Assembly (NCBI GenBank): GCA_009996515.1
Contig: JAACZV010000023.1
Location: 1 to 64,000, forward strand
Length of the DNA: 64,000 nucleotides
Source: Comamonadaceae bacterium
GTDB lineage: Bacteria > Pseudomonadota > Gammaproteobacteria > Burkholderiales > Burkholderiaceae_C
Reading direction: 5' to 3'
The notes under the pieces are model-generated. The model was not told where the DNA came from, did not search any database, and saw nothing but the letters and a program-made list of their open reading frames with translations. Numbering within the stretch: position 1 is the stretch's first letter; the number at the start of each line of letters is the position of its first letter. This document shows positions 978 through 27,515 of this stretch, piece after piece. The translations under genes and the position numbers were made by a program.

Positions 978-1571
978 CTACTTCTTGCATTTGCCGCTGG
1001 CCTCGGCGGCCAGCCAGAACGGCAGGCTGAGCAGGCCGAAGCCGCCGCCGGGGAACTCGCCCTTCAGGCAGTTGCCGTAGGCGGTGCGCGCCACCTCGCG
1101 GCCTAAACGCTGCTGCGCGCTCTCGCGCTCCGGGGCCTGGCTGGCCGAGGCGGCCCGCTCGGACAGCAGCGGCGCGCGCGCCGACTGGCGTATCGCCAGC
1201 CGTGTGGCCTCGCTGTTGATCAGCAGCGAGGCGGGCGGCGGTGCGGCCTGCTCAGCGGCCTGCGCGGCAACCTCCGGGGCGGGCTCCGCCGGGTTTGCGA
1301 GGGCTGGGGCCGGATGGGGTGGTGTCTCTTCGCGGCCCTCTTCGCGGGCCGGTTCGGCCCGGCGCGCGGGCGCGGCCGGGCGTGCCGGCACGATCGGGCC
1401 CACCGCGAGGGGTGGGGGCGGGACGGCGCGGGGCAGCGGCAGCAGCTTCAGCGCCACCCGTTGCCCGGCCGGCCGCGGCGCCGGCGGGTGGTGTGGTGCC
1501 AGCACCATCAGCACGCCCAGGTGGGCCGCGGCGATCAGCAGCCACAGCGCATGGCGGCGTTCAAGGCGCAT
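978..1571 (-). CDS. Proline/alanine-rich anchored periplasmic protein
   Basis: The 197-residue product has a short basic N-terminus, one membrane segment (about residues 9-26, ALWLLIAAAHLGVLMVLA), a long Pro/Ala/Arg-rich linker (about 27-110) and a small C-terminal region with two cysteines (GNCLKGEF and SGKCKK). The anchor-plus-linker design resembles TonB-like proteins, but the usual TonB C-terminal domain is not evident. Its start overlaps the stop of the HTH regulator gene by 11 bases, which implies cotranscription and probably coupling. The function is unknown. The partial gene at the left edge looks like a second copy of the same design. Confidence 0.6.
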   Translation of the reverse strand: MRLERRHALWLLIAAAHLGVLMVLAPHHPPAPRPAGQRVALKLLPLPRAVPPPPLAVGPIVPARPAAPARRAEPAREEGREETPPHPAPALANPAEPAPEVAAQAAEQAAPPPASLLINSEATRLAIRQSARAPLLSERAASASQAPERESAQQRLGREVARTAYGNCLKGEFPGGGFGLLSLPFWLAAEASGKCKK

Positions 1572-1797
1572 GGCCGTCGTCCTCGGGCTCGGCGCCGGCC
1601 TCCCAGGCCAGCAGGTCGCCGGGCTGGCATTGCAGCGCCTCGCAGATGCGGGCCAGCGTGTCGAAGCGCACGCCGCGCACCTTGCCGCTCTTCAGCAGCG
1701 ACAGATTGGCCTCGGTGATGCCCACGCGCTCGGCCAGCTCGCGCGAACGCATCTTGCGGCGCGCCAGCATCACGTCGAGGGTGACGACGATGGGCAT
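1561..1797 (-). CDS. Small XRE-type HTH transcriptional regulator (YozG-like)
   Basis: The 78-residue protein is essentially a single Cro/CI-type helix-turn-helix: SRELAERVGITEANLSLLKSGKVRGVRFDTLARICEALQC shows helices 2 and 3 and the conserved packing helices. Small regulators of this type are commonly encoded beside DUF2975 membrane proteins, and a DUF2975 gene lies just upstream (1963-2511) on the same strand. Only one base separates this start from the stop of the small ORF at 1799-1966. It probably regulates its own operon, whose promoter would lie upstream of the DUF2975 gene. This is inference from context. Confidence 0.8.
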   Translation of the reverse strand: MPIVVTLDVMLARRKMRSRELAERVGITEANLSLLKSGKVRGVRFDTLARICEALQCQPGDLLAWEAGAEPEDDGHAP

Positions 1798-1798
1798 G

Positions 1799-1966
1799 TC
1801 AACGGATCACGGTTGCAGGGCTCAGCGGGCCGAGCGCCGGGCCGCCCCCAAGCCGGCCCGAGTTGGCGATGTGCTTGCGGCTCGATGCCGCAAGCATCGC
1901 CGTCCCCTCGGGGGACCGTTCGGGCGCGCCCGCGTTCAGCGGGGCGAGACTGGACGAGGGGCTCAT
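1799..1966 (-). CDS. Candidate small protein encoded by a palindromic repeat (55 aa)
   Basis: This ORF begins with ATG in an ATGA overlap with the DUF2975 stop codon and ends one base before the HTH regulator start, so it exactly fills the gap between two operon genes. The predicted 55-residue peptide contains the core SPEGTAMLAASSRKHIA. A second locus (26386-26616) encodes the same core, also in an ATGA overlap. Over the shared core the five base differences I count all fall at third codon positions, which hints that the peptide is translated and constrained. It may instead be only a palindromic repeat that happens to stay open. I do not recognise a function. Confidence 0.4.
   Translation of the reverse strand: MSPSSSLAPLNAGAPERSPEGTAMLAASSRKHIANSGRLGGGPALGPLSPATVIR
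1827..1966 (-). repeat. Palindromic intergenic repeat, long copy A
   Basis: About 140 bases that recur with high similarity at 26397-26616. It contains a perfect 9-bp stem with 5-base loop (1873-1895, GCTTGCGGC/GCCGCAAGC) and a perfect 6-bp stem with 3-base loop (1902-1916, GTCCCC/GGGGAC), followed by the module GAGCGCCGGGCCGCCC. Read on the minus strand it starts right at the stop codon of the DUF2975 gene. Degenerate relatives occur at 45346-45435 and 48740-48820, and short in-frame relatives inside lysA and wlbC. Confidence 0.75.
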
Positions 1967-2511
1967 ATGAACTCCGCGTTCTCGTCGGCGACGCGCGCGG
2001 CCTCGGCCAGCACCTGGGCCAGCGCCAGCAGCAGCAGGCCGAACAGCAGCGCGAGGTAATGGTCCGACGACAGGCCCACCCACAGCTGGCGCTCGCCCTT
2101 GGGGTTGCCCCAGGTCACGGCCAGGATGCCCAGCGTGTGGCCCAGTGGCTGGGCCGCCGCCAGCGCGCACAGGCCCAGGCCCAGGCGGCGCAGATGGCGG
2201 GCCGGGCGGCGTGCCAGCAGCTCGCCCTGGGCGAAGCAGCCGAACAGCGCCCACATCTGCCACAGCGCGTACAGGCTGACCGAGGTGGGCAGCATGGAGG
2301 CCGCCAGGCCCCACAGCCGTGAGCCCAGGTCCAGCTGCAGCTTGCTGAGGTGCCAGGTGCGGGCGGCCACCTCCGCCACCCAGTCGGGCTGGGCCCAGAA
2401 GATGAAGGGCAGGGTGCCGATGACCAGCACGCCCAGCAGGCTCAGCAGCCGCACGATCCAGGCCAGGCGGCGGATGCGCCGCAGACCGTCGGCGGAGAAG
2501 GATTCGGCCAT
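1963..2511 (-). CDS. DUF2975 family integral membrane protein
   Basis: The 182-residue product has about four hydrophobic segments: near residues 18-40 (IVRLLSLLGVLVIGTLPFIFW), 70-90, 108-130 and 150-168. Its layout fits DUF2975 membrane proteins, which are typically encoded beside a small YozG-like HTH regulator, as here (1561-1797). The start MAESFSADG was chosen because an in-frame extension would cross the AT-rich divergent promoter region shared with ybaK. The biochemical function of the family is not known. The partner regulator suggests a self-controlled membrane module. Confidence 0.75.
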   Translation of the reverse strand: MAESFSADGLRRIRRLAWIVRLLSLLGVLVIGTLPFIFWAQPDWVAEVAARTWHLSKLQLDLGSRLWGLAASMLPTSVSLYALWQMWALFGCFAQGELLARRPARHLRRLGLGLCALAAAQPLGHTLGILAVTWGNPKGERQLWVGLSSDHYLALLFGLLLLALAQVLAEAARVADENAEFI

Positions 2512-25535: not shown

Positions 25536-26372
25536 TCAACCCTTGGCGATCGGTCGGGCCGGGTCGGATGACCATTCGCTCCAGGAGCCCGGATAGAGCA
25601 GGCCTCCCAAGGGTTCGCCCAGGCCGGCGTGGGCCATGGCCAGCAGGTTGTGGCAGGCCGTCACGCCCGAGCCGCATTGATGCACCACAGCGTCGGCCGC
25701 GAAGGGCGCGAGCAGGGGCTGGAACTCGGCGCGCAGCTGGGCGGCCGGCTTGAAGCGGCCGTCGGGGCCGAGGTTGTCCTTGAAGAAGCGGTGGCTGGCG
25801 CCGGGGATGTGGCCGGCGGCCTGGTCCAGCGGCTCCACCTCGCCGCGGAAGCGCTCGGCGGCGCGGGCGTCGATGAGGCGGACCCGGCCGAGCTTTTTCA
25901 GCAGCGCGGCGGCGTCGATCTGGCCGACCAGGGGCGGGCCGGGCTGCCAGTCGCTGGGCGTGGCGGCGGGGATGTCGGTGCTCAGCTCGCCATCCCAGGC
26001 GCCGTCCAGCACGGCGACCTGCGCATGGCCCAGCCAGCGCAGCATCCACCACAGCCGGGCGGCGTAGGGGCCGCCCTGGCGGTCGTAGGCGACGACCTGG
26101 CGGCCCGCTGCCAGGCCCAGGCGGCGCAGCAGCGCGGCGAAGCCGTCGCGCTCGGGCAGCGGGTGGCGGCCGCGGAAGCTGCCGTCGGCGGCGGTCTTGG
26201 GGCCGCAGAGGTCGCGGTCCAGGTGCAGGTAGACCGCGCCGGGGATGTGGCCGGCCGCGTAGGCGCGCTCGCCGGCGCCGGTGTCGGCGAGGTCGAAGCT
26301 GCAGTCGACGATCAGCGGGCCGCTCAGGCCGCGCAGTTCGGCGCAGGAGATCAGCGTGGTGAAAGACTTCAT
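25536..26372 (-). CDS. sseA: Sulfurtransferase with two rhodanese domains (SseA-like)
   Basis: The 278-residue product has two rhodanese domains. The first, inactive one (about 5-140) shows AGHIPGAVYLHLDRDL and VVAYDRQGGPYAARLWWML. The second (about 155-275) carries the catalytic loop HQCGSGVTACHNLLAM. A CGSGVTA loop is typical of 3-mercaptopyruvate sulfurtransferases rather than thiosulfate-specific rhodaneses. It acts in cytoplasmic sulfur transfer. The small repeat-encoded ORF lies 13 bases upstream. Confidence 0.88.
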   Translation of the reverse strand: MKSFTTLISCAELRGLSGPLIVDCSFDLADTGAGERAYAAGHIPGAVYLHLDRDLCGPKTAADGSFRGRHPLPERDGFAALLRRLGLAAGRQVVAYDRQGGPYAARLWWMLRWLGHAQVAVLDGAWDGELSTDIPAATPSDWQPGPPLVGQIDAAALLKKLGRVRLIDARAAERFRGEVEPLDQAAGHIPGASHRFFKDNLGPDGRFKPAAQLRAEFQPLLAPFAADAVVHQCGSGVTACHNLLAMAHAGLGEPLGGLLYPGSWSEWSSDPARPIAKG

Positions 26373-26385
26373 GTCAGTGGTCCCT

Positions 26386-26616
26386 TCAGCGTTGCGCGAT
26401 TTCTTGGGCCGAGCGCTGGGCCTGCCATGGGCCAGAGGCCAATGGCCCTCCATAGGCACAAGCAGTCCGCAGGGACTGCTTGTGTCCGACTCCGGTTCCC
26501 GAGCCGGCCCGTTTGGCGATGTGCTTGCGGCTCGACGCCGCAAGCATCGCCGTCCCCTCGGGGGATCGGTCAGGCGCGCCGCGTTCAGCGGTGTGCGGCT
26601 GGACGAGGGGCTTCAT
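26386..26616 (-). CDS. Candidate small protein encoded by a palindromic repeat (76 aa)
   Basis: This ORF starts with ATG in an ATGA overlap with the EamA transporter stop and ends 13 bases before the sseA start, the same arrangement as at 1799-1966. It begins MKPLVQPHTAERGAPDR and contains the core SPEGTAMLAASSRKHIA; the C-terminal half is unlike copy A because of an extra hairpin segment. Third-position-only differences over the core suggest coding constraint, but no homologous domain is recognisable. It may be a repeat that merely stays open. Confidence 0.4.
   Translation of the reverse strand: MKPLVQPHTAERGAPDRSPEGTAMLAASSRKHIAKRAGSGTGVGHKQSLRTACAYGGPLASGPWQAQRSAQEIAQR
26397..26616 (-). 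repeat. Palindromic intergenic repeat, long copy B
   Basis: It shares with copy A (1827-1966) the 9-bp hairpin GCTTGCGGC/GCCGCAAGC (26523-26545), the GTCCCC module and the end abutting a stop codon. It differs by an insertion that includes a perfect 12-bp stem with 4-base loop (26457-26484, CACAAGCAGTCC/GGACTGCTTGTG). Confidence 0.75.
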
Positions 26617-27515
26617 GAATCCGCGGGGTTGAACTGGCTGTCCCTGGCCGGCGGGGCGACCCGGCTGCGCAGCAGCGTGGCGGCGATGCCTGCGCCGATG
26701 ATGAGCAGCATGCCGATGGCGGCCTGCCAGGTCAGCGGATCCTTGAACAGCAGCATGCCGTAAATGAAGGAGAACACGATGCCCAGGTATTGCAGGCAGG
26801 CGTTCACCAGCGGCCGGCCTATGGAGTAGGCCCGCGTCAGGCAGACCTGGGCGGTGGTGGCCAGCACGCCGACGGCCAGCAGCAGCGCGGCGCCCCACAG
26901 CGTGTGGGGCTGCAGGCCGCCCTGAGTCAGGCCCGTGATGACGGCCCCGGCCACGCAGCCACCCAAGGAGAAATAGAAGACCACGCGCAGCTCCGGCTCG
27001 CCAGCCCGGCCCAGCGCCGTGACCTGCAGATAGGCCATCGCGGCGATCATGCCGGACAGCAGGCCGGCCAGGCCGTGCCAGAGCTGCTGCTGGTCCAGCG
27101 TGGGGCGCAGGATCAGCGCGACGCCGGCAAAGCCCAGCAGCACGGAGGCCATCAGCCGCCAGTCCAGGCGCTGGGCCCCCATCAGCACGGCGCCACCGAG
27201 CAGGAACAGCGCCATCCAGACCGAGGACATGTAGTTCAGCGTCATGGCCGTGGCCAGCGGCAGGTGGCTGATGGCGTAGAACCACAGACACAGCGAGCTG
27301 ACGCCGGAGATGCTGCGCCACACATGCATGCCGGGCAGGCGGGTCTTGAGGCTCAGCCCCTGGCGCTGCGACAGCAGGGCCATCATGACCGCGCCGACCA
27401 GGCCGCGGTACATGACGATCTCGCTGGCCGCGTAGAACTCGCTGGCCAGCTTGACGCAGACGCCCATGGTGGCGAACAGCAGCGTCGCCAGGACCATGAG
27501 CGCCGGTGCGGGCAT
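26613..27515 (-). CDS. EamA-family (DMT) transporter
   Basis: The 300-residue protein has ten hydrophobic segments in two EamA repeats (first from MVLATLLFATMGVCVKLASE, second from LAGLLSGMIAAMAYLQVTALG). Members export or import small metabolites across the inner membrane, and the substrate is unknown. The ATG overlaps the TGA of the Rieske oxygenase gene (ATGA), so transporter and oxygenase are very likely one unit, and the transported compound may relate to the oxygenase substrate (inference). The C-terminus is followed at once by the palindromic repeat copy B. Confidence 0.85.
   Translation of the reverse strand: MPAPALMVLATLLFATMGVCVKLASEFYAASEIVMYRGLVGAVMMALLSQRQGLSLKTRLPGMHVWRSISGVSSLCLWFYAISHLPLATAMTLNYMSSVWMALFLLGGAVLMGAQRLDWRLMASVLLGFAGVALILRPTLDQQQLWHGLAGLLSGMIAAMAYLQVTALGRAGEPELRVVFYFSLGGCVAGAVITGLTQGGLQPHTLWGAALLLAVGVLATTAQVCLTRAYSIGRPLVNACLQYLGIVFSFIYGMLLFKDPLTWQAAIGMLLIIGAGIAATLLRSRVAPPARDSQFNPADS

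Follow-up and report, generated by a model that had tools for sequence, protein, structure and literature searches.

Mycobacterial interspersed repetitive units (MIRUs), reportedly described by Supply et al. in 1997, are the closest published idea that we found to the repeat analyzed here. They are not known to have dyad symmetry. REP/BIME/REPIN elements, which go with RAYT transposases, are high-copy, extragenic, imperfect palindromes often found behind genes, and Rickettsia palindromic elements (RPEs) keep an open frame and sit inside genes. One review states that MIRUs appear mobile, insert at start codons, and have an internal open reading frame (ORF) coupled at -4 nt (PMC12548453). For one MIRU-VNTR site, another source reports orthologous junctions of 1-20 bp (54 bp in one species) in other mycobacteria (PMC2734929). 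Enterobacterial RU-1, RU-2, and RU-3 are reported as mobile intergenic repeats of 100-170 bp that carry ORFs (PMC2759123).

Compared by description, our element resembles MIRUs in being a short, dispersed repeat at gene starts, between co-directional genes at overlapping or nearly overlapping stop and start codons. It has tandem copies too, and an internal ORF joins the flanking stop and start (here in 37/58 form-A and 26/35 form-B copies). Unlike MIRUs, it is found in betaproteobacteria and has strong covarying hairpins, two forms in opposite orientations, and two frames in use; it is palindromic, though it may work as MIRUs do. It shares with REP/BIME/REPIN elements a high copy number, an extragenic position that is often behind a gene, and an imperfectly palindromic sequence but differs in its length of 79-137 nt, its several hairpins, and its phase-linked ORF. 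RPEs also keep an open frame, inside genes rather than between them. RU-1, RU-2, and RU-3 are likewise intergenic repeats carrying ORFs, but their ORFs are reported to be fused into annotated genes, whereas here separate ORFs link a stop to a start (PMC2759123). A literature search by title and abstract opening, with most subscription journals outside its scope, found no prior description of the element.

The window, a 64,000-nt stretch of contig JAACZV010000023.1 from a Comamonadaceae bacterium, contains two form-A copies of the element (Table 1). A preliminary description of this DNA had reported an ORF in each copy, starting in an ATGA overlap with the upstream stop and ending shortly before the next gene. 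We confirmed both ORFs on the minus strand, with gaps of 1 nt (copy 1) and 13 nt (copy 2) to the next gene, and the shared peptide core, SPEGTAMLAASSRKHIA (17 residues), is present in each. Five base differences had also been counted over that core, all at third codon positions. The third-position character holds and the number does not: the 51-nt core differs at one base (GCA/GCG, third position), and five third-position differences are reached only over a wider stretch, about -15 to +53 around the core start. Neither window ORF matched Pfam or PHROGs, and a search against Rfam found 0 matches at E ≤ 1 for the two window sites and 0 at gathering for four relative loci. Fold strength beyond shuffles was modest for copy 1 (z -1.67) and greater for copy 2 (z -4.41), in single-sequence folding, which is less telling.

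Table 1. Features of the two window sites
Feature	Position	Strand	Remarks
Element copy 1, form A, 137 nt	1826..1962	-	hairpins H1-H4
Hairpins of copy 1	1826..1962	-	H1 (covarying); H2 GTCCCC/GGGGAC; H3 GGCGATG..CATCGCC (covarying); H4 GGGCCG..CGGCCC
Bridge ORF 1, 55 aa	1799..1966	-	ATGA overlap with upstream stop; TGA-C-ATG end at next gene
Site 1, upstream gene 1, DUF2975	1963..2511	-	Pfam 2.3e-10
Site 1, downstream gene 2, Cro/C1-type regulator HTH_26	1561..1797	-	Pfam 5.1e-24
Element copy 2, form A, ~75-nt nested insertion in hairpin H4	26405..26611	-	ends by eye
Nested insert in copy 2, own hairpin ACAAGCAGTCC..GGACTGCTTGT	26423..26497, approximate	-	by eye
Bridge ORF 2, 76 aa	26386..26616	-	ATGA overlap with upstream stop; end 13 nt before next ATG
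Site 2, upstream gene 1, EamA-like transporter	26613..27515	-	Pfam 1e-17
Site 2, downstream gene 2, rhodanese domains	25536..26372	-	Pfam 5.3e-20

A BLAST search with the repeat-bearing stretch, in which 40 of 189 candidates were scored, yielded 43 matches; these fall at 40 places in the 4.58-Mb genome. The exact pattern of the 3' module occurs 68 times in the genome, against 0 for the same pattern read backwards. Hence, this is a dispersed repeat and not a chance resemblance. All 20 genomes of the genus that were searched, its own included, had matches. Within the family, 74/150 genomes (69/141 genera) matched a 79-nt form-B query at E ≤ 0.001, with at most six candidates scored per genome, and 42 of the 74 did so at E below 1e-10. 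Across the class, 5/369 genomes matched the form-B query (two candidates scored per genome); two of these belong to the same family, and three matched through 23-37 nt of the query. Genera among the matches listed include Roseateles, Pelomonas, Paucibacter, Rhizobacter, Leptothrix, Sphaerotilus, Methylibium, Aquabacterium, Piscinibacter, Ideonella, Rubrivivax, and Rivibacter. Among the matches listed, a single label was noticed that falls outside the Sphaerotilaceae-like genera: a metagenome-assembled genome labelled Methylotenera (L097) that has a full form-A copy. It reflects either a wider host range or an error in contig binning. When a 79-nt form-B copy was searched against plasmid and phage collections, nothing matched. 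RAYT was considered as the mover and set aside: two Y1_Tnp (RAYT) genes were found in the genome, no form-A copy lies within ~1.5 kb of either, and inverted repeats nearby gave no lead. Tandem form-B arrays with a period of ~88-90 nt were seen in seven cases, with up to six units among the matches listed.

Form A (~137 nt) and form B (~79 nt) have common ends, GCCCCTCG and GGGCCGGCTTGGG(A)GCGGCCCGGCGCTCGGCCCG; the 3' end served to find the form-B and outside-genus copies, which partly accounts for its constancy among them. Terminal inverted repeats and fixed-length target duplications, as in MITEs, were also looked for: by eye, one end is not the inverted repeat of the other, and repeats in the flanks differ in length and can be made out clearly in few copies. 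L029 was left out of one of the alignments (A1). Across 149 form-A copies, 90% of H1 cells and 96% of H3 cells are paired, with 144 and 112 double compensatory changes, respectively, compared with maxima of 61 and 33 in 200 shuffles, which do not keep the relatedness of the copies. The strongest covarying columns are mostly H1 and H3 pairs; H4 is 0.99 paired in the form-A alignment, and we claim covariation for H1 and H3. RNAalifold's own consensus paired the 5' half with the 3' end, contrary to the covarying pairs, and was not used. Also rejected was a switch involving the 5' end and the H2 arm, by which the form-B GAGGGG could be masked; it is 93.8% paired, with no covariation above shuffles.

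Several features of individual copies accompany this architecture. In form-A H1, pyrimidine-pyrimidine mismatches at consensus positions 8/43 and 13/38 are kept by coordinated swaps (C/T to T/C), and these conserved mismatches look as if they were recognized in the hairpin. Other hairpin sequences are nested in element loops in window copy 2 and in three other copies (L174, L120, and L139). A longer 3' tail is common to some form-A copies, seen in five right flanks, several of which end like ATGGACAACTGACATG. Intergenic TAACTGA repeats have been reported in Beggiatoaceae (PMC4679880).

The position of the element between genes, with gene starts and contexts from a purpose-made gene finder, was recorded in a discovery set and a fresh set of copies. 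Fresh copies were drawn from the ~150 best places (at most 40 scored per genome), which biases them toward well-conserved copies. Part of the discovery set (L034-L042) comes from the same genomes as fresh copies, and 7 of 100 fresh copies were identical to discovery copies and were dropped. For form A, 65/72 discovery copies lie behind a same-strand gene and have called neighbors on both sides, and 64 of these 65 start -1 to 12 nt after its stop. The fresh figures are 83/92 and 80/83; 61 of the 92 lie between co-directional genes, and 22 face a convergent gene. Form B is placed the other way around: in both sets together, 49/74 copies are reversed between two co-directional genes, and in 25 of the 49 exactly 4 nt separate the element from the start codon, a spacing that would put the form-B GAGGGG at a plausible Shine-Dalgarno distance. 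The upstream gene was called as running into the element at L026, at L140, and in three fresh copies (distance -27/-28); in those three, its stop lies ~27 nt inside. At these places, the upstream gene may obtain its stop and a C-terminal tail from the element.

The bridge test covered copies between co-directional genes. We called a copy bridged when a start codon at the gene-1 stop was in phase with an open frame ending between -12 and +6 of the gene-2 start. This criterion was set after viewing the discovery copies and was applied unchanged to the fresh ones. Among fresh form-A copies, 37/58 were bridged, compared with a mean of 17.0 and a maximum of 29 in 5000 phase rotations, and 32/58 had an exact ATGA, TGATG, or TGA-C-ATG ending. 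With one copy per gene-pair group, 29/50 were bridged (control mean 14.0, maximum 25, 20000 rotations). The discovery copies gave 20/41 (rotation mean 12.0, P 0.0007). This test left out three of 61 fresh copies, whose gene-1 stop falls within the element by 27-28 nt, and one of 42 discovery copies (by 66 nt). Form B, read in gene sense, was bridged in 26/35 copies (control mean 12.0, maximum 22, 5000 rotations; 25/34 by gene-pair group), after exclusion of 14/49 pairs with a gap above 45 nt, many of them tandem. Each frame is open in 48-49 of 49 form-B copies, so the phase is the signal there. In spacers of 100-260 nt, bridging was seen in 12/88 without the element and 89/146 with it, the latter set overlapping the other bridge sets.

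The link between start and open frame depends on the next gene. In fresh co-directional copies, 47/52 start phases were open compared with 52/122 other phases (p 1.5e-9). The 22 fresh convergent copies, 11 of them with a start, showed no link (6/13 start phases open vs 25/53 others, p 1.0). In the discovery set, the link was weak for co-directional copies (30/40 vs 45/83, p 0.03), and convergent copies had 9/14 start phases and 34/55 others open. The preliminary description had offered, as one of two readings, a palindromic element that maintains an open frame. This reading is borne out, in that the frame is tied to a start at the stop codon, only before a co-directional gene and in phase with its start; in the co-directional context, frames are not broken as often as chance. 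Bridging is not obligatory, with 21/58 fresh form-A and 9/35 form-B copies unbridged, and a true overlap at both ends is found in only part of the 37/58 and 26/35 bridged copies.

Because the frame-start link is confined to copies before a co-directional gene and is in phase with its start, translational coupling is the likely role. We are fairly confident that this is a dispersed, probably non-autonomous mobile, palindromic intercistronic repeat that survives in coupled junctions mostly with a bridge ORF. In the model that we propose, the repeat sits in junctions of co-directional, translationally coupled gene pairs, and the bridge ORF would begin at a start codon overlapping or closely following the gene-1 stop, cross the element in whichever frame is open, and end at the gene-2 start, most often as ATGA or TGA-C-ATG. 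A ribosome finishing gene 1 would re-initiate, pass the hairpins, and arrive at gene 2. The encoded peptide would be a by-product, the kept feature being passage for ribosomes, and the element would be tolerated where a translational bridge remains. Sequence, distribution, placement, phase, empty sites, and covarying hairpins are direct observations; we infer translation, re-initiation, mobility, and a phase kept by selection rather than by the insertion mechanism. Against this counts that convergent genes follow 22/92 fresh form-A copies, where coupling has no meaning.

Those convergent copies would suit an element that is a post-stop structure only, i.e., a terminator, an mRNA 3'-end stabilizer, or a ribosome termination structure whose open frame is a by-product of high G+C. 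Form A does begin directly after stop codons, and both window copies have strong folds, that of copy 1 exceeding shuffles only modestly. Structures directly after stop codons are reported to insulate re-initiation (PMC7518266). Such a structure, however, leaves unexplained the phase link to the gene-2 start and its absence before convergent genes, the 12/88 background in spacers free of the element, and the position of form B before start codons. We find it unlikely as the sole explanation; it may be a second role in convergent copies.

Orthologous junctions in the genus show the same sites with and without the element. At site 1, the junction was readable in 18 genomes, own included (L158, at a contig end, and L176 were unusable). 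Eleven are empty: five read TGATG, one TAATG, and one TGACATG, and the remaining four have spacers of 3-16 nt, giving an overall range of -1 to 16 nt. The others are filled at the stop by four element copies, one remnant, and two inserts with an unrelated CACAGAGG repeat. All 7/7 orthologs with an insert of at least 50 nt are bridged, ending 0-9 nt before gene 2. The four element copies are all in phase, despite spacers that differ by up to 75 nt and a nested insert in one (L174). In the four copies and the remnant, the last sense codon of gene 1 is GTA, GTG, or ATA, making ATGA or GTGA, whereas 10/11 empty orthologs have GTC or ATC there. The site-1 tree is compatible with one or several insertions for the four copies. 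At site 2 (L188 and L195 unusable), four relatives have the ATGA overlap, while the two genes are separated by 2-3 nt in six and by 21 nt in one. Four carry a different palindromic repeat, two of them open to 23-24 nt before the start and two without a start, and one has a 107-nt spacer without a start. The window copy at site 2, ending 13 nt short, falls just outside the -12 to +6 limit.

These junctions bear on a mechanical origin of the phase. If the length of the element and its target duplication (of the ATGA/TGACATG junction) were both fixed, insertion would always place a start at the left and a stop at the right in one phase, without selection. Some copies (eight) do have junction-like sequence on both sides, and a start-anchored flank test found a total run of at least 8 in 6/57 copies vs 1.3 expected. 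A general flank test for target duplication gave 5/143 at a score of at least 12 vs 1.5 expected, two of the five being tandem copies. We regard these flank results as suggestive of a fixed target duplication. In form B, 7 of 26 bridged copies share a start-to-start distance of 89 nt, and for those seven the phase could come from a fixed insertion length. But the 26 have 13 different distances, form-A bridge ORFs range over 50-67 aa, element lengths cover all three residues mod 3, two frames are in use, and the four site-1 copies stay in phase across their unequal spacers. We consider a purely mechanical phase quite unlikely. At one locus (L144), the start of what is presumably a kinase gene occurs in three copies together with the ATGA junction, spaced by 149 and 155 nt; the bridge ORF begins at the first junction copy, crosses the element, and stops at the ATGA of the second.

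What the bridge keeps is the frame and not the peptide. Of the differences among 144 cores, 31.6% lie at codon position 1, 40.8% at position 2, and 27.6% at position 3. Relative to the consensus, codon changes comprise 102 synonymous, 344 nonsynonymous, and 5 stops, a synonymous share of 22.6% vs 25.6% expected for random single changes. Form-A bridge ORFs use frame 0 in 29/57 and frame 2 in 27/57 copies, with one assigned to neither, and by eye some compensatory changes alter the frame-0 peptide. At the gene-2 end, 23/26 bridged form-B copies use the same frame, so many of their peptides are similar; this constancy is implied by the 4-nt spacing. In some form-B copies (L106, L063, and L103), the first half is read in another frame, which fits a passage rather than a peptide. 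The third-position bias expected under the small-protein family that the preliminary description had put forward is thus absent. That a real small-protein family was spread by the repeat is hardly credible: the 17-residue core common to the window copies and the similar peptides that nucleotide conservation gives in many form-B copies speak for it, but the codon-position and synonymous counts, with nonsynonymous changes about as frequent as random, the use of two frames, the compensatory base-pair changes, and the lack of a Pfam or PHROGs match for the window ORFs speak against it.

Two other palindromic repeat families, of the CACAGAGGCACAGAGG and CCCACCCCCTACGCGCTTCGCG types, lie at the same junctions, at the stop. 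Their site-1 copies (L164 and L167) are bridged, and their four site-2 copies are not within -12 to +6. A tentative extension of the bridge model is that coupled junctions are landing pads in which unrelated repeat families may settle only with an in-phase bridge, which would then set the re-initiation ratio of the operon partners.

The idea from MIRUs that a repeat inserts in a coupling site and its own ORF restores coupling is open to a quantitative test here: numerous gene pairs can be compared, sister species provide empty sites, the two forms lie on opposite strands, and convergent genes serve as a control. Our findings also explain a class of small ORFs, with the frame kept and the peptide not, that annotation or ribosome profiling could mistake for genes. 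If coupled junctions do act as landing pads, these repeats would be evolvable tuners of operon stoichiometry across the family.
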